Of a stretch of DNA of 64,000 bases, positions 8,011 through 15,465 are shown piece after piece. The stretch lies in the NCBI RefSeq assembly GCF_017833035.1, contig NZ_JAFIBM010000001.1, forward strand, positions 2,501,762 through 2,565,761, written 5' to 3'. The position numbers and the translations under genes are program-made. Within the stretch, counting starts at the first letter, position 1, and the number at the start of each line of letters is the position of its first letter. The notes below the pieces were generated by a model. That model did no database searches, had not been told where the DNA came from, and worked only from the letters and a program-made list of their open reading frames with translations. This DNA is from Frigoribacterium sp. PvP032. GTDB taxonomy: Bacteria > Actinomycetota > Actinomycetes > Actinomycetales > Microbacteriaceae.

Positions 8011-8322
8011 ATGATCGCGATCAGCGCCGAGGTGCGGCAGGCCGACGGCATCGACTCCGTCCGCCAGCTCGAGACCAGCCTGCGGCGGCACTGGGAGAGC
8101 ATCCCCGTGAAGTCGCACCAGTACCTGCTGCGCTTCTGCGACGGCCCCGTGCTCGTCACCGACGAGCTGCGCTCGCTGCGCCTCGACGTCGTCGTCTCGG
8201 ACGAGCGCTCGGCCGCGCACTTCGTCGAGTCGTTCCGCAGCGAGATCGAGTCGCGGGTCGTCGGCCGGCCCGTCGACGTCCGCTGGTCGCGTCCCGCCGT
8301 CGCCCCGCAGCCGCTGCGCTGA
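8011..8322 (+). CDS. Hypothetical protein
   Basis: A 103-aa soluble protein without a family I recognise. It begins MIAISAEVRQADGIDSVRQLE and has alternating hydrophobic/charged strands with no signal peptide, membrane helix or cysteine cluster. ATG 8011 has no ribosome binding site, but CACCAT at 7999-8004 stands 6 bases before it, the leaderless pattern. It ends 4 bases before the phosphopantetheinyl transferase gene, so it is probably in the same transcript as that gene and the peptide synthetase. A role in that pathway is possible but unproven. Confidence 0.6.
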   Translation: MIAISAEVRQADGIDSVRQLETSLRRHWESIPVKSHQYLLRFCDGPVLVTDELRSLRLDVVVSDERSAAHFVESFRSEIESRVVGRPVDVRWSRPAVAPQPLR

Positions 8323-8326
8323 CCTC

Positions 8327-9076
8327 GTGACCACCGTCCTGTTCCCGCCGGCACCGGTGTCGACCTGGCTGGTGCCGCTCGACGACACGGCCGACGGCGT
8401 CGTCGCGTCGCTCCGGCTCGCGCGGCCGGAGGGCGACCCTGCGTCGTGGCTCGACGCCGACGAGCGGGTCAGGGCCGCGCGGCTGCACGACGCGACCGAC
8501 CGTCATCGCTGGCTGATCTCGCACGTCGCTCTCCGCCTCCTGCTGGGCGCGTCGCTCGAGGTGCACCCGTCGGCGGTCGAGGTCGTCCGTGAGGCGTGTC
8601 CGCGCTGCGGCGGCCCGCACGGCCGCCCGGCGCTGGCGCCCGGCCGACCGCTGCGCTTCTCGCTCAGCCGCTCGGAGGGGCACGCTCTGATCGCCCTCCG
8701 CCGCGGGCTCGACGTCGGCGTCGACCTCGAGACCGCGAGCCCGACCCCGGCTGCGACCGCGACGACGGGCCCGTCGGCGTCCGACGGCCTGGCCCGGTGG
8801 GTGCGCACGGAGGCGCTGCTCAAGTCCACGGGCGAGGGCCTGGCCCGTGACCCCGACGCCGTGACGCTGCGGCCGCTGGCGCCGGGAGTCTGGGGCGAGC
8901 ACGACGTCGCGGACGAGACCTACGGGACCGACGAGGACGCCGGGGGCCCCGACGTCGGCCCGGCCCGCACCGTCGCCGACCTCGCGCTGCCGGGGCCGTT
9001 CGTCGCCGCCGTCGCCGGCCCGGGGCTCGACCGAGCCCGCGTCCGCGTTCACCTCCCGGTCACCGCGGCGGCCTAG
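8327..9076 (+). CDS. 4'-phosphopantetheinyl transferase, Sfp type
   Basis: This enzyme moves the phosphopantetheine arm from coenzyme A to the serine of a carrier domain, turning apo- into holo-peptide synthetase. The 249-aa protein shows the three family signatures: the CPRCGGPHGRP segment, GVDLE with the metal-binding Asp and Glu, and WVRTEALLKSTGEG, a variant of the W..KEA..K motif. Thr in place of the usual first Lys of that motif is worth noting. The GTG start follows the hypothetical gene by 4 bases. Its likely client is the carrier domain of the Pls-type synthetase 102 bases downstream. Confidence 0.85.
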   Translation: MTTVLFPPAPVSTWLVPLDDTADGVVASLRLARPEGDPASWLDADERVRAARLHDATDRHRWLISHVALRLLLGASLEVHPSAVEVVREACPRCGGPHGRPALAPGRPLRFSLSRSEGHALIALRRGLDVGVDLETASPTPAATATTGPSASDGLARWVRTEALLKSTGEGLARDPDAVTLRPLAPGVWGEHDVADETYGTDEDAGGPDVGPARTVADLALPGPFVAAVAGPGLDRARVRVHLPVTAAA

Positions 9077-9113
9077 GTTCCCAGGCGACCACGCCGCCCG
9101 CCGCGAGCCGCCC

Positions 9114-9147
9114 CACGACCGGGCAGCCCGCACGACCGGGCAGCCCG
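9114..9147. repeat. 17-bp tandem duplication upstream of pls-like gene
   Basis: CACGACCGGGCAGCCCG occurs at 9114-9130 and again directly after at 9131-9147, in the gap between the transferase and the peptide synthetase genes. It could be a binding site pair or a slippage product. Confidence 0.7.
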
Positions 9148-9178
9148 CGCCCCCGAGCCCACCCGGAGAGCACGACCG

Positions 9179-12100
9179 ATGCCGGACACCCCCTCGACGC
9201 CGACGCCCGCCCCGTTGCCCGCCGAGGCCTTCCTCCGATCGCCGCTCGCGGCCGAGCCGCGCACGCTCGTCGAGGTGCTGCGGGCCACGACCCTCGCGCA
9301 CCCCGAGGCCTCGGCCCTCGAGGACGAGCGCGGGGCGCTGAGCTACCGCGAGCTCTCCGCGCAGGTCGCGACGGCGGCCGGCGTGCTCGTGTCGGCCGGC
9401 GTGCGCCGGGGCGACCGGGTCGGCGTGCGGATGCCGTCCGGCGACCGCCGCCTCCACCTCGCGATCCTCGCCGTGCTCACCGCGGGCGCCGCGTACGTGC
9501 CGGTCGACGCCGACGACCCCGAGGAGCGCGCCGCCCTCGTCTTCGGCGAGGCCGACGTGGCCGGCGTCGTCGGGGCCGGCGGCGTCTACCGGACCCCTGG
9601 CCAGGGCGACCTCGAGGGCGCGGCCCTCTTCAGCGGGCGGGTGCCGCACGCGAGCACGACGACGGAGGGGGTGCCGTCGGTCGCCGCTGCGGCCCCGCGC
9701 CCCTCGGACGACGCCTGGATCATCTTCACCTCGGGCTCGACGGGCACGCCCAAGGGCGTCGCCGCCAGCCACCGCGCCGCGGCCGCCTTCGTCGACGCCG
9801 AGGCACGGCTGTTCCTGCAGGAGGCGCCGCTCGGGCCGGGCGACCGGGTGCTGGCCGGTCTCTCGGTCGCCTTCGACGCCTCCTGCGAGGAGATGTGGCT
9901 CGCCTGGCGGAGCGGCGCCTGCCTGGTGCCCGCGCCGCGCAGCCTGGTGCGGTCGGGCGCCGACCTCGGGCCGTGGCTCGTGACGCACGGCATCACCGTC
10001 GTCTCGACCGTGCCCACCCTCGCCGCGCTCTGGCCGGCCGAGGCGCTCGAGTCGGTCCGCCTCCTGATCTTCGGCGGCGAGGCGTTCCCGTCCGACCTCG
10101 TCGGCCGGGTCTGCGCCGACGGCCGCGAGGTCTGGAACACCTACGGCCCGACCGAGTCGACGGTCGTCGCGACGGGCGCCCTGGTCGTGCCCGGCGAGCC
10201 CGTCCGCATCGGGGTGCCCCTCGACGGCTGGGACGCCGCCGTCGTCGACGAGTCCGGCCGCCCGGTCGCCGAGGGCGAGGTCGGCGAGCTGATCATCGGC
10301 GGCGTCGGCCTCGCGCGCTACCTCGACCCGGCGAAGGACGCCGAGAAGTACGCGCCGCACGACGGGCTCGGCTGGGCCAGGGCCTACCGCAGCGGCGACC
10401 TGGTGCGCCTCGAGCGCGAGGGCCTGGTCTTCCAGGGCCGCGCCGACGACCAGGTCAAGGTCGGCGGGCGGCGCATCGAGCTGGGCGAGATCGAGGCGGC
10501 CCTGCAGGCGCTGCCGCACGTCGCGGGCGCGGCTGCCGCGGTGCGCACCACCGACGCCGGCAACCAGGTGATCGTCGGCTACCTCGCCCTCGGGGCAGGC
10601 GCCTCCCTCGACCGCACGGAGGCGCTGGCCCGGCTCCGGGCGGAGCTCCCCGCCGCGCTCGTCCCGCTCCTCGCCGTGGTCGACGGAGACCTGCCGACGA
10701 AGACGTCGGGCAAGATCGACCGCGAGGCACTGCCCTGGCCCCTGCCGGAGCAGGCTGCCGCCGAGACGGGGCTGCGCGCCGACGAGGCCGTCCTCTCCGC
10801 CGACTGGCAGGCCGTGCTCGGGCTGCCCGTCGTCGACACTGCCGCCGACTTCTTCGACCTCGGCGGCGGCTCGCTCGCGGCGGCGCAGCTCGTCGCCCGG
10901 ATCCGCTCACGCGACCCCGAGTACACCGTGGCCGACGTCTACTCGCACCCCCGGCTCGGCTCGATGGCGGCCGACCTCGCCTCGCGGGCCGAGGAGCGGG
11001 GCGAGACGGGCGGAGGCGCGGGCTCGGCGGGCGGCGCCGGCACCGGTCGCGACGACTACCGGCGCTCGGCGCCGACGCCCCTGCGCGCGCAGTGGCTGCA
11101 GACCCTGCTCGCGCTCCCCCTGCAGACGCTCAGCGGCCTGCGCTGGCTGGTCTGGGCGCTCACGGCGTCGGCAGTGCTGCGGACGGTCGACGGCTTCGAG
11201 TTCCTGCCCCGCACCTCCCCGTGGCTGCTGGTCGTCGGCCTCGTCCTGTTCGTGACCCCGCCGGGTCGGATGCTGATCTCGGTCGTCGCCGCGCGCCTCC
11301 TGCTGCGGGGCGTCCAGGCCGGCGACCACCCGCGCGGCGGCAGCGTGCACCTGAGGCTCTGGGCGGCCGAGCAGGTGCAGGAGCAGGTGGCCGCCGTCGG
11401 CCTCGCGGGCGCCCCGTGGGTCAGCTACTACGCCAGGGCGCTCGGCGCACGGATCGCCCCCGACGTCGACCTGCACGCCCTGCCGCCCGTCACGGGCATG
11501 CTGCGGATCGGCCGGGGCGCCTCGATCGAGCCGGAGGTCGACCTCTCGGGCTGGTGGCTCGACGGCGACGTGCTCCGCCTGGGCGCCGTCCGCATCGGCG
11601 CGGGCAGCACCGTCGGCATGCGCAGCACGCTGCTGCCCGGCACCCGCATCGGCAAGAACGCGACCGTCGCCCCCGGCTCGGCCGTCTTCGGACGCGTGCC
11701 GGCCGGGCAGGCGTGGTCGGGGTCGCCCGCCGCCCGCAGCGGCCGCGCGAAGGCCTGGTGGCCTGCCGAGCGTCCGCCGCGCGCGACCCGCTGGCTGTGG
11801 GCCTACGGCGCCTCGTCGGTGCTGCTGTCCCTGCTGCCCGGCGTCTCGCTCGTCGCGGGCGCCCTCGTCGTCGCGGCCGGGATGCGCGGCTCGGCGACCC
11901 TGGGCGAGGCCTGGTGGCGCGCGGTCGCCTGGGTCGTGCCCGGCACGGTCGTGGCCGGCGTCGTCGCGGCGGTCGCGGTCGTCGTGCTGGTCCGCCTGCT
12001 CGGCGTGGGCGTGGCCGAGGGGACGTGGCCGGTGCGCAGCCGCGTCGGCTGGCAGGTCTGGAGCACCGAGCGGCTGCTCGACCTCGCCCGCACGTACCTG

Positions 12101-13204
12101 TTCCCGATCTACTCGAGCCTCGCGACCCCGGTCTGGCTCCGCCTCCTGGGGGCTCGCGTCGGCCGCGACGTGGAGGCGTCGACGGTGCTGCTGCTGCCCG
12201 TCATGACGACCGTCCGCGACGGGGCCTTCCTCGCGGACGACACCTTGGTCGCCTCGTACGAGCTCGGCGGCGGGCACCTCCGGGTGGCCAGGGCCGAGAT
12301 CGGGCGACGCGCTTTCCTCGGCAACTCGGGCATGGCCGGGCCCGGACACCGGGTGCCCGACGACGGCCTCGTCGCGGTGCTCTCGGCCGCTCCCCCGAAG
12401 TCGCGCCCCGGCTCGTCCTGGCTCGGGTCGCCGCCCGTCCGGCTGCGGCGCACGGTCGCCGCTGCCGACGAGGCGCTCACGTTCCGCCCGCCCACCCGGC
12501 TGCGGGTCGCGCGGGCCGTGTGGGAGCTCGGCCGCATCGTGCCCGTCGTCGTCACCGTGCTGCTCGGCACGGCCGTGCTCCTCGCCCTCGCCGGCCTCGC
12601 CGCCGCGCGGGGACCGCTGCTGGCGGGGCTCGCGAGCGGACTCGTGCTGATCGCGGCCGGGCTCGTCGCCGCCGTCGTGACCACCGCCTCCAAGTGGGCC
12701 CTGATCGGGCGCGTACGGGCAGGTGAACAGCCGCTCTGGTCGTCGTTCGTCTGGCGCAGCGAGGTGGCCGACGTGTTCACCGAGATGCTGGCCGCGCCCT
12801 GGTTCGCCCGGGCCGCGACGGGGACGCCTGCCCTCGTGTGGTGGCTGCGCAGCCTCGGGGCCCGCATCGGCCGCGGCGTCTGGACCGACAGCTACTGGCT
12901 GCCCGAGGCCGACCTGGTGACGCTCGGCGACGGATCGACCGTCGGACGGGGCTGCGTCGTGCAGACGCACCTGTTCCACGACCGGATCATGTCGATGGAC
13001 ACCGTGACCCTCGACGCCGGTGCCGCACTCGGCCCGCACAGCGTCGTCCTGCCGGCGGCCGTGGTCGGCAGCCACGCCACCGTCGGCCCTGCCTCGCTCG
13101 TGATGCGCGGCGAGGGCGTGCCCGACGGCAGCCGCTGGAGCGGCAACCCGATCGGGCCGTGGCGCGAGGTCCGGCACTCCGACTACCACGCGGCCACCTC
13201 GTGA
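9179..13204 (+). CDS. Pls/PosA-type non-ribosomal peptide synthetase (poly-amino-acid synthase)
   Basis: A 1341-aa membrane peptide synthetase built like the Streptomyces epsilon-poly-lysine synthetase Pls (about 1320 aa). An adenylation domain covers residues about 20-520 (IIFTSGSTGTPKG from 181, Asp233 in FDAS, NTYGPTES from 320, Lys in KTSGKID). A carrier domain follows with Ser565 in FFDLGGGSLAA. Then come three pairs of membrane helices, each followed by a cytoplasmic domain with left-handed beta-helix (hexapeptide) repeats. There is no condensation or thioesterase domain; in Pls the three tandem C-terminal domains join free and bound monomers. The pocket code DAESIGTVVK suggests a basic amino acid. 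The M1 peptidase gene overlaps its stop. Confidence 0.92.
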   Translation: MPDTPSTPTPAPLPAEAFLRSPLAAEPRTLVEVLRATTLAHPEASALEDERGALSYRELSAQVATAAGVLVSAGVRRGDRVGVRMPSGDRRLHLAILAVLTAGAAYVPVDADDPEERAALVFGEADVAGVVGAGGVYRTPGQGDLEGAALFSGRVPHASTTTEGVPSVAAAAPRPSDDAWIIFTSGSTGTPKGVAASHRAAAAFVDAEARLFLQEAPLGPGDRVLAGLSVAFDASCEEMWLAWRSGACLVPAPRSLVRSGADLGPWLVTHGITVVSTVPTLAALWPAEALESVRLLIFGGEAFPSDLVGRVCADGREVWNTYGPTESTVVATGALVVPGEPVRIGVPLDGWDAAVVDESGRPVAEGEVGELIIGGVGLARYLDPAKDAEKYAPHDGLGWARAYRSGDLVRLEREGLVFQGRADDQVKVGGRRIELGEIEAALQALPHVAGAAAAVRTTDAGNQVIVGYLALGAGASLDRTEALARLRAELPAALVPLLAVVDGDLPTKTSGKIDREALPWPLPEQAAAETGLRADEAVLSADWQAVLGLPVVDTAADFFDLGGGSLAAAQLVARIRSRDPEYTVADVYSHPRLGSMAADLASRAEERGETGGGAGSAGGAGTGRDDYRRSAPTPLRAQWLQTLLALPLQTLSGLRWLVWALTASAVLRTVDGFEFLPRTSPWLLVVGLVLFVTPPGRMLISVVAARLLLRGVQAGDHPRGGSVHLRLWAAEQVQEQVAAVGLAGAPWVSYYARALGARIAPDVDLHALPPVTGMLRIGRGASIEPEVDLSGWWLDGDVLRLGAVRIGAGSTVGMRSTLLPGTRIGKNATVAPGSAVFGRVPAGQAWSGSPAARSGRAKAWWPAERPPRATRWLWAYGASSVLLSLLPGVSLVAGALVVAAGMRGSATLGEAWWRAVAWVVPGTVVAGVVAAVAVVVLVRLLGVGVAEGTWPVRSRVGWQVWSTERLLDLARTYLFPIYSSLATPVWLRLLGARVGRDVEASTVLLLPVMTTVRDGAFLADDTLVASYELGGGHLRVARAEIGRRAFLGNSGMAGPGHRVPDDGLVAVLSAAPPKSRPGSSWLGSPPVRLRRTVAAADEALTFRPPTRLRVARAVWELGRIVPVVVTVLLGTAVLLALAGLAAARGPLLAGLASGLVLIAAGLVAAVVTTASKWALIGRVRAGEQPLWSSFVWRSEVADVFTEMLAAPWFARAATGTPALVWWLRSLGARIGRGVWTDSYWLPEADLVTLGDGSTVGRGCVVQTHLFHDRIMSMDTVTLDAGAALGPHSVVLPAAVVGSHATVGPASLVMRGEGVPDGSRWSGNPIGPWREVRHSDYHAATS

Positions 13205-14616
13205 AGGCACCTGTCGACGGCGCCGCACCGTCCGACGACACGGCGGCCGACGAGAGCGTGTTCGATGACACTGTGCCCGACACCGCAGTGCCTGCCAACG
13301 CAGTGCCCGACAGCTACACGCCCGACAGCGGCGCTGACGACTTCACCGTCGCCTCCTACGACCTCGAGCTCTCGTACCGGGTCGCCACCAACCGGCTCGA
13401 CGGCCGGGCGACGATCTCGGCGGTGGCGACGGCGCCGCTGCGTCGCGCGGTGTTCGACCTCGTCGGCCTGCGGGTCTCGCGGGTGCGCGTCGACGGCCAC
13501 AAGGCGCGCTTCAGCCAGAGCGCGACGAAGCTGACGGTCACGCTGCCCGACACGGCGGAGGCAGGCACCCGGTTCAGCACCGTCGTCGACTACTCGGGCC
13601 GGCCGGCACCACGCCGCGGACCGTGGGGCGAGATCGGCTGGGAGGAGCTGACGGACGGCGTCATCGTCGCGGCACAGCCGAACGGCGCCGCGACCTGGTT
13701 CCCGTGCAACGACCGCCCGGACGACAAGGCCACGTACCGCACGCGGATCGACGTCGAGCACGGCTACCACGTCGTCTGCAACGGCGACCTCGTCTCGCGC
13801 CGATCGACCCCCGGCAAGGTCACCTGGACGTTCGAGCAGCCCGAGCCGACCTCGAGCTACCTGGCGACGGTGCAGATCGGGCGCTACGAGTCGCGAGAGC
13901 TGGCCCTCGGCACCGACGACGAGCCCGTCCACGGCGCCCTCGTCGGCCCGGCGGACCTGCGCACGCGCATCGACCACGACTTCGGCGCCGTGCCCGAGAT
14001 GGTGCGCTGCTTCACCGCCTCCTTCGGCCCCTACCCGTTCGGCGGCTACACCGTGGTGGTCACGGCCGACGACCTCGAGATACCGCTGGAGGCGCAGGGC
14101 GTCGCCGTCTTCGGGGCGAACCACGCCGACGGGCGGTCGGGCAGCGACCGGCTGATCGCGCACGAGCTGGCGCACCAGTGGTTCGGCAACAGCGTGGGCG
14201 TGGCGTCGTGGCGCCACATCTGGCTCAACGAGGGCTTCGCCTGCTACGCCGAGTGGCTCTGGTCGGAGTGGTCGGGAGGCGCGTCGGTCGCGACCCACGC
14301 CCGCCGCACCCACCTGCGGCTCGCCCTGCCGACACACGACATCACGGTGGGCGACCCCGGGCCGGACGCGATGTTCGACGACCGCGTCTACAAGCGCGGC
14401 GCGCTGACGCTGCAGGCCCTCCGGCTGACGATCGGCGACGACGCGTTCTTCGCCGTGCTGCGGAGCTGGACCGACGAGAACCGGTACGGCGCCGTGTCGA
14501 CCGACGACTTCGTGCGGCACAGCGTGCGCGTCAGCGGCCACGACGCCGGCGAGCTCGAGCGCTTGTTCGCGGCGTGGCTCCTCGAGCGCCCGCTGCCGCG
14601 CCTGCCCCGCGACTGA
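13201..14616 (+). CDS. M1-family zinc metallopeptidase
   Basis: A 471-aa gluzincin. The zinc site is HELAH at residues 321-325 with the third ligand Glu344 in NEGF, giving the family spacing of 18 residues. The N-terminal beta domain runs from about residue 45. In place of the classical GAMEN exopeptidase motif there is LEAQG. The first 45 residues are acidic and unstructured, and no signal peptide is seen. GTG 13201 overlaps the synthetase TGA (GTGA), so the two proteins are translationally coupled. M1-type aminopeptidases are known to degrade epsilon-poly-lysine in Streptomyces, so it may trim or detoxify the polymer; this is inference. Confidence 0.9.
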   Translation: MKAPVDGAAPSDDTAADESVFDDTVPDTAVPANAVPDSYTPDSGADDFTVASYDLELSYRVATNRLDGRATISAVATAPLRRAVFDLVGLRVSRVRVDGHKARFSQSATKLTVTLPDTAEAGTRFSTVVDYSGRPAPRRGPWGEIGWEELTDGVIVAAQPNGAATWFPCNDRPDDKATYRTRIDVEHGYHVVCNGDLVSRRSTPGKVTWTFEQPEPTSSYLATVQIGRYESRELALGTDDEPVHGALVGPADLRTRIDHDFGAVPEMVRCFTASFGPYPFGGYTVVVTADDLEIPLEAQGVAVFGANHADGRSGSDRLIAHELAHQWFGNSVGVASWRHIWLNEGFACYAEWLWSEWSGGASVATHARRTHLRLALPTHDITVGDPGPDAMFDDRVYKRGALTLQALRLTIGDDAFFAVLRSWTDENRYGAVSTDDFVRHSVRVSGHDAGELERLFAAWLLERPLPRLPRD

Positions 14617-14639: not shown

Positions 14640-15155
14640 TCAGCTCTCAGCGGCGGCGATCAGCTTCGACATGGTGCGGTGCAGCAGCACCAGCTCGTCG
14701 CGAGTGACGTCGAGCCGGGCCATCATCCGCTCGGGGATCGACTCGGCCTGCTCTCGGAGGGCGGCCCCGGCAGCCGTCAGCTCGATGCTCAGCGCTCGTT
14801 CGTCCTCAGCGCTGCGCCCGCGAGTGACCAGCCCCTGCGCCTCGAGCCGCTTGACCAGCGGCGACAGCGTGCCAGGGTCGAGCCTCAGCAGCTCGGCCAG
14901 GTCGCGGAGCGCCAGCGGCTGCCGCTCCCACAGGGCGAGCATCACGAGGTACTGCGGGTGCGTGAGCCCCATCGGCTCGAGCACGGGCCGGTAGGCGGAG
15001 ACCACGCTGCGGGAGGCGACCGACAACGCGAAGCAGATCTGGCTCTCGAGCGCGAGCGGGTCGACCGGCGCCGGGTCGGCCGGCACCGGGTCGACCGGCG
15101 CCGAGTCGACGGGCACGGGGTCGACCGGCACGGAGGCGCGGTCCGCGGCGCTCAC
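14640..15155 (-). CDS. MarR-family regulator, OhrR-like
   Basis: A 171-aa winged-helix repressor. ESQICFALSVASRSVV at about residues 38-53 matches the OhrR helix that carries the peroxide-sensing cysteine, and the wing follows in LDPGTLSPLVKRLEAQGLV. The first 36 residues are an odd low-complexity Pro-Val-Asp repeat (VDPVP units), reflected as a minisatellite at about 15058-15132. GTG 15155 overlaps the stop of the small gene before it, so they form an operon. No ohr peroxidase gene is adjacent, so the regulated target is unclear. Confidence 0.87.
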   Translation of the reverse strand: MSAADRASVPVDPVPVDSAPVDPVPADPAPVDPLALESQICFALSVASRSVVSAYRPVLEPMGLTHPQYLVMLALWERQPLALRDLAELLRLDPGTLSPLVKRLEAQGLVTRGRSAEDERALSIELTAAGAALREQAESIPERMMARLDVTRDELVLLHRTMSKLIAAAES

Positions 15156-15439
15156 TCGCCTGCGTCCCGAGGGCAGTGCAGCATCGTGCGCGGTCCGGAG
15201 CGGTCGACGACGTGCTCGTCCATCGGGCGGCCGCAGAGCGGGCAGGCCCCGCCGTGCTCGGGGGCGACGATCGGAGCCTCGTCGCGGATGCCGAGCTGGG
15301 CGCCGCCGATGTAGGGACGCAGCCGGGAGTTCATCCGTTCGACGGCGTCGCCGAACCAGCTGCCGTGCTCGTGCCCGGGCTCGCGGCCCTGCGCATCGCC
15401 CTGTTCGTCGCCGTGTCGCCGTGATCTCTTCGTCGCCAT
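15152..15439 (-). CDS. Small protein with CxxC...C zinc-ribbon-like end
   Basis: A 95-aa protein of no family I can name. The first 30 residues are basic and hydrophilic; the middle has WFGDAVERMNSRLRPYIGG; the end has CPLCGRPMDEH and, 17 residues on, MLHCPRD. These three Cys plus His could bind zinc. ATG 15439 is preferred over in-frame starts further upstream because the operator at 15449-15465 would otherwise be inside the gene. It is coupled to the OhrR-like gene by a GTGA overlap, so it may act in the same response. Confidence 0.65.
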   Translation of the reverse strand: MATKRSRRHGDEQGDAQGREPGHEHGSWFGDAVERMNSRLRPYIGGAQLGIRDEAPIVAPEHGGACPLCGRPMDEHVVDRSGPRTMLHCPRDAGE

Positions 15440-15448
15440 GTGCTGAGC

Positions 15449-15465
15449 GTACCAATCATTGGCAC
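15449..15465. promoter_or_regulatory. Palindromic operator before the OhrR-like operon
   Basis: GTACCAATCATTGGCAC has perfect CCAAT/ATTGG half-sites around one central base and ends 10 bases before the operon start. Its size and AT-rich core suit a MarR/OhrR dimer, which suggests autorepression. The Bacillus OhrR site TACAATT-N-AATTGTA is similar in layout. Confidence 0.55.

Follow-up and report, generated by a model that had tools for sequence, protein, structure and literature searches.

A putative epsilon-poly-lysine operon in the window

A block of three genes in the window, i.e. in the whole stretch of 64,000 nucleotides that was analysed, very probably represents an operon for biosynthesis of the antimicrobial polymer epsilon-poly-L-lysine (epsilon-PL), in which a phosphopantetheinyl transferase (PPTase), an epsilon-PL synthetase (Pls) and a peptidase act as a set, their functions being read from the genes themselves. 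With equally high confidence, we describe the block as a predicted pls-pldII operon that carries its own PPTase. ORF calling located the PPTase gene at positions 8327 to 9076 of the forward strand (249 aa, GTG start). It is followed on the same strand by the putative pls gene at 9179 to 13204 (1341 aa, ATG start), recognised by the model TIGR02353, by similarity to the structure 7wew and by the specificity code DAESIGTVVK, and by the gene of a PldII-like M1-family metallopeptidase at 13201 to 14616, also on the forward strand (471 aa, GTG start), recognised by PF01433, PF17900 and an HExxH motif. The GTG codon of the peptidase (13201-13203) lies over the TGA codon of pls (13202-13204), giving a 4-bp gene overlap. 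The ORF coordinates agree with the preliminary description of this DNA, which placed all three genes in one direction and noted that the peptidase start overlaps the synthetase stop.

Several features surround the three genes. A small ORF ending at 8322 gave no Pfam match and no tblastn match in the best 80 of 564 loci. The intergenic gap between the PPTase gene and pls holds a 17-bp unit in 2.4 copies (9110-9148), and a MarR-family regulator gene on the reverse strand (14640-15455) is convergent to the peptidase gene.

Within the synthetase, Pfam at E 0.01 detected five families (AMP-binding, AMP-binding_C, PP-binding, Hexapep and Hexapep_2), of which the AMP-binding_C and Hexapep_2 matches were below their own cut-offs, and found no condensation or thioesterase domain, in line with the earlier claim that both are absent. 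The search with the NCBIfam model TIGR02353 (Pls/PosA family), which the preliminary description had called for, gave a match over residues 640-1325 with 702.2 bits against a cut-off of 423.1. On the forward strand, the predicted adenylation (A) domain spans 9248 to 10741 (about residues 24-521), the peptidyl carrier domain 10793 to 10972 (PF00550, residues 539-598, with the putative phosphopantetheine site Ser565 encoded at 10871-10873) and the putative C-terminal polymerisation region of Pls/PosA type 11096 to 13153, as judged from TIGR02353, an AlphaFold2 model, Foldseek and conservation. The architecture proposed before, an A and a carrier domain followed by three helix pairs with hexapeptide-type domains, is thus predicted also by Pfam, TIGR02353 and AlphaFold2/Foldseek. 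We rejected an ordinary nonribosomal peptide synthetase (NRPS), e.g. a siderophore module, by the lack of condensation and thioesterase domains together with the TIGR02353 score over the cut-off, and a DltA-like D-alanine ligase by its NCBIfam score (164 bits vs a cut-off of 560).

Distribution and co-occurrence of the three genes

A genome scan confirmed 564 relatives, of which the best 80 were kept as loci for comparison. Pls was present in 87 of the 199 genomes of the window's family, the Microbacteriaceae, and in 79 of 296 genomes sampled from its class. The preliminary description had suggested an unrecognised producer. The assignment to epsilon-PL stands at the level of sequence, but the word "unrecognised" is overstated, since a study of 2021 had already listed coryneform Pls homologues, from Microbacterium, Arthrobacter, Brevibacterium and other genera (PMC8117764, retrieved text), and many genomes of the window's family carry the gene. 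The sequence spoke neither for nor against the biofilm role that the preliminary description had also raised. Among the open-licence papers searched, none brought together poly-L-lysine, a synthetase and Microbacteriaceae, and none poly-L-lysine and Frondihabitans.

Within the window's genus, eight of 16 genomes contain Pls over the cut-off, and in each of the eight the region covers query positions 2-695 of 695 with no internal stop. The PPTase was found in exactly the same eight genomes, as was the close peptidase (at least 62% identity), and the remaining eight are devoid of all three genes. Where present, the PPTase gene, pls and the peptidase gene follow one another in this order on one strand of one contig, within about 6 kb. 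All 16 genomes additionally carry a distant peptidase homologue of 26-28% identity, presumably aminopeptidase N. The chance of one gene occurring in exactly the same eight of 16 genomes is 1 in 12,870 if the genomes are independent, but because the genus genomes are related the real surprise is smaller, and the all-or-none pattern may in part come from shared ancestry of the eight. The three genes are found together or not at all in the genus, which is the pattern expected of a functional cassette. A tree of the C-terminal region largely tracks families and sets the window beside Frondihabitans.

The scan also returned some less regular cases. In one family genome the Pls region is split over two frames (G070:C1:2188642-2190701), and three genomes of one genus (G065, G123 and G169, genus g65) each have two TIGR02353 matches over the cut-off. 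A match over the cut-off was likewise obtained in the Corynebacterium glutamicum control genome, though C. glutamicum has been used for heterologous expression of pls (PMC8117764).

An intact locus may still be silent, or may yield short oligomers without an antimicrobial role; we consider this an unlikely but serious possibility, which is compatible with the proposed gene functions and does not compete with them for probability. For Corynebacterium variabile, the retrieved text of PMC8117764 reports a native culture with no epsilon-PL, in which the Pls protein was not detected, and half of the genus genomes do without the genes altogether. A simple scan of our locus for a sigma-70-like promoter or terminator found none, which carries little weight in a GC-rich actinobacterium. 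Silence is opposed by the retained code residues and carrier serine, by a frame that is open over 1341 aa and by the whole, stop-free Pls region in all genus members with the gene.

The linked probable phosphopantetheinyl transferase

The first gene of the predicted operon encodes a divergent protein. It gave no Pfam match at E 0.01, and its match to the NCBIfam model HetI (2.4e-11, 43 bits) is below the cut-off of 370; six homologues from other loci all matched PF01648, four of them over the gathering score. We take GxD and WxxxEAxxK to be the active-site motifs of Sfp-type PPTases. Residues D205, W230, E234, A235 and K238 of the window protein are present in all 33 aligned rows and G203 in 31 of them (this numbering counts residues upstream of the GTG). 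By these sequence features, the protein is probably an Sfp-type 4'-phosphopantetheinyl transferase dedicated to the carrier domain of the synthetase.

With a profile built from the window gene, a PPTase close to pls was detected in 32 of the best 80 of 564 loci, namely in 32 of 36 loci of the Micrococcales group vs none of the 44 others. The group includes a metagenome-assembled genome labelled Propionibacteriaceae (L056), because it was placed among Microbacterium in the C-terminal tree. In 30 of the 32 loci the PPTase gene is downstream and faces pls-pldII, in one (L078) it is downstream and co-directional, and in one, from Frondihabitans (L003), it is upstream and co-directional as in the window. 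Four Micrococcales-group loci were without the gene, three of them with full flanks (L006, L012 and L013), while the fourth (L044) ends about 0.5 kb past the peptidase.

Conserved-neighbour clustering at E 1e-15 covered 37 loci, i.e. the 36 of the Micrococcales group and the window. Among the 14 largest clusters, four have a window member, and these correspond to Pls, to the frame of the peptidase and to shadow frames on the reverse strand. Other listed clusters, which the window copy did not join, sit at the PPTase position (e.g. one of 15 loci at a median of +5333, with 14 of the 15 members on the strand opposite to pls) and probably represent PPTases.

In the window's own genome, the PPTase sequence found only itself at E up to 1. 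PF01648 at E 0.001 yielded one protein, which matches models of holo-ACP synthase (AcpS); a second PPTase, equally divergent but unlike the first, could escape this search, since even the window PPTase gives no match to PF01648. PF00550 at E 0.001 yielded two carriers, Pls and a small ACP, the latter by eye a fatty-acid ACP between ketoacyl-ACP-synthase-like frames.

It is improbable, in our judgement, that the PPTase is an accidental neighbour that serves other carriers. Such a reading would account for the 48 of the best 80 of 564 loci that have no PPTase close to pls, including the three Micrococcales loci with full flanks. Yet among the same 80 loci the gene accompanies pls in nearly the whole Micrococcales group in three different arrangements, it follows Pls exactly through the genomes of the genus, and the sole other PF00550 carrier found is a fatty-acid ACP, for which the genome has an AcpS. 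In the open-licence literature searched, we found no description of a PPTase linked to pls; PMC4361855, in its retrieved text, names PPTases solely in a gene-ontology count.

Predicted lysine specificity of the adenylation domain

When the A domain was compared with the protein chains of solved structures, by far the best score was that of the Streptomyces albulus epsilon-PL synthase 7wew (632 bits). The next-best chain is linear gramicidin synthase (335 bits), and the delta-poly-L-ornithine synthetase PosA (8g95), whose chain is shorter at 414 residues, scored 186 bits. The predicted lysine pocket consists of D233, A234, E237, S276, I297, G299, T321, V329, V330 and K512, which together give the code; the ten positions were set by the motif spacing that we take to be that of PheA, not by structure superposition. 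The aligned sequence of 7wew gives the same ten residues, and neither the code nor the carrier Ser565 varies in any of the 81 rows of the alignment (the window and the best 80 of 564 homologues, all from named genomes).

According to the retrieved text of PMC10522769, alanine at pocket position 2 is associated with lysine, methionine with ornithine and phenylalanine with diaminopropionate or diaminobutyrate, while DGESISVVNK corresponds to beta-lysine. Alanine at this position in the window fits the published rule and points to a lysine-type pocket. Other poly-diamino-acid products were set aside by the pocket code, and it is very improbable that the protein is a Pls relative polymerising 2,4-diaminobutyrate, 2,3-diaminopropionate, ornithine or beta-lysine: the domain order is common to all these synthetases (PMC8117764, PMC10522769), but the code is that of 7wew and is unlike what has been published for the others, either as a full code or as the residue at position 2 (PMC10522769), the score for PosA is far below that for 7wew, the operon with a peptidase is a context unlike that of the other three synthetases compared (retrieved text of PMC8117764), and no diamino-acid biosynthesis gene was seen among the seven flanking ORFs scanned.

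The putative C-terminal polymerising region

An AlphaFold2 model of residues 606-1341 was built from 41 sequences (the window and 40 of the 80 loci) and reached a mean pLDDT of 80.6 and a pTM of 0.85. It contains three pairs of long helices with a short-strand region after each pair. The six lowest-E Foldseek matches in the PDB are hexapeptide (left-handed beta-helix) acyltransferases, with a best E of 1.3e-5, and the lowest-E matches comprise serine acetyltransferases, LpxD, galactoside acetyltransferases and QdtC. When normalised to the query length, no TM-score among the 50 matches listed exceeds 0.15, and no match spans the whole C-terminal region.

Conservation highlights individual residues in this region. 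Sixty-three C-terminal positions are near-invariant (at least 86 of 88 full Pls rows) and also identical in three of three distant relatives without an adenylation domain. H1264 is the sole histidine among them, with Q1262 and D1268 nearby. We infer that Q1262, H1264 and D1268 in the third hexapeptide-fold domain form a candidate catalytic site; as every one of the 50 structural matches listed leaves part of the region uncovered, the conserved Q-H-D set offers concrete residues to mutate.

Distant TIGR02353 proteins were observed at L089, L102 and L103, in genomes of one family (G354, G336 and G327). The protein of L102 (1408-4014, reverse strand), 868 aa long, combines a carrier domain with hexapeptide repeats but is without an adenylation domain, and by eye its gene adjoins an NRPS-like frame and an isochorismatase-type hydrolase-like frame. 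Proteins of this kind may obtain their amino acid from a partner enzyme.

The putative PldII-like peptidase

The third protein matched PF01433 (M1 family) with 92.5 bits and PF17900 with 58.5 bits. Its HExxH motif starts at His321, and the motif is present in 81 of 81 rows (the window and the best 80 of 564 loci). No hydrophobic signal sequence was seen by eye at its N-terminus, and a search for its relatives in viral contigs found none. In all of the best 80 of 564 loci, pls is followed on its own strand by a peptidase homologue, at a distance of no more than 250 bases in 75 of them and of 622 to 2206 bases in the remaining five; the nearest peptidase start gives a 4-bp overlap in 41 of these 80 loci and a 1-bp overlap in 19. 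A further 32 loci, 30 of which are only about 5 kb long, yielded a peptidase by tblastn in 26 cases and not in six (L087, L089, L102, L103, L104 and L114). The six include the three distant synthetases without an adenylation domain and Rhodococcus opacus plasmid pROB01 (L087), on which pls is preceded by genes for a MarR protein and a response regulator, and the annotation shows no peptidase within 6 kb.

From sequence and context, the window protein is predicted to be a PldII-like enzyme that degrades epsilon-PL. In S. albulus, pls and pldII overlap by 4 bp in their operon, and PldII is described as the main degradase (PMC4361855). Translation of PldII is reported to be coupled to that of pls, and the enzyme to reside outside the membrane (PMC9223678); the lack of a visible signal sequence in the window peptidase speaks against a full likeness. 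The role of the peptidase is unsettled in the retrieved text of the published sources, as production and chain length in S. albulus were, according to a review, unchanged when Pld and PldII were inactivated (PMC8506220), whereas repression of pldII by CRISPRi in the same species resulted in longer chains (PMC9223678).

Proposed mechanism and significance

In the mechanism that we propose, the PPTase would attach the 4'-phosphopantetheine arm to Ser565 of the carrier, and the A domain, judged by the identity of its pocket, would activate L-lysine and load it onto this arm. The C-terminal region would then join lysines from alpha-carboxyl to epsilon-amino and release the chain outside, both of which are reported for Streptomyces Pls. 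Finally, the translationally coupled M1 peptidase would trim or destroy epsilon-PL and in this way probably protect the producer, as reported or postulated for S. albulus PldII. The scheme of activation, polymerisation and degradation put forward in the preliminary description holds at the level of sequence, with the Pls code, an A domain closest to 7wew and a peptidase coupled by 4 bp as in pls-pldII.

We extend this tentatively, with somewhat more doubt than confidence, to a broader model. In Micrococcales, pls, pldII and a dedicated PPTase might form a portable, self-contained cassette that is gained or lost as a unit, so that half of the species of the window's genus would be epsilon-PL producers with their own activation and immunity. 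Bond formation would take place at Q1262, H1264 and D1268, a Q-x-H...D arrangement in the third hexapeptide-fold domain that is kept in distant relatives without an adenylation domain.

Epsilon-PL is produced by fermentation of Streptomyces for use as a food preservative (PMC8117764). A self-contained cassette could make non-filamentous actinobacteria practical as producers, and the occurrence of pls operons across many actinobacteria of soil and plants would suggest a little-understood ecological role.

Comparison with known systems

One of the systems compared is PosA of Acinetobacter baumannii, which shares the A domain, the carrier and a C-terminal region of putative membrane type with the window protein, but has methionine at pocket position 2 where the window has alanine (PMC10522769), and is separated from it by the A domain scores given above.

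The Pls and peptidase of C. variabile are encoded in one operon, and expression of this Pls in S. coelicolor gave epsilon-PL of 26-35 residues (Jiang et al. 2021, PMC8117764). With this system the window shares a coryneform actinobacterial Pls of like architecture and a peptidase in one operon. It differs in belonging to another actinobacterial family and in the linked PPTase, which is not mentioned for C. variabile in the retrieved text. The same source reports no detectable epsilon-PL when the C. variabile Pls was placed in C. glutamicum.

The S. albulus pls-pldII locus has the same synthetase architecture, the same lysine code and a metallopeptidase gene that follows pls directly and overlaps it by 4 bp. 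A Streptomyces plasmid among our loci (L086) similarly carries Pls, overlapped by 4 bp by a gene whose annotation reads M1 family metallopeptidase. The window peptidase is 44% identical to the peptidase downstream of pls on this plasmid; no PPTase is annotated there within 6 kb and none was matched by tblastn. Together with the work of Jiang et al. (2021, PMC8117764) and the Pls homologues named in a Nocardia survey of 2014 (PMC4035055), this makes the block a fresh example of an already known system. To the pls-pldII system the window adds a PPTase directly upstream, and this linkage looks to be the sole part that is under-described.
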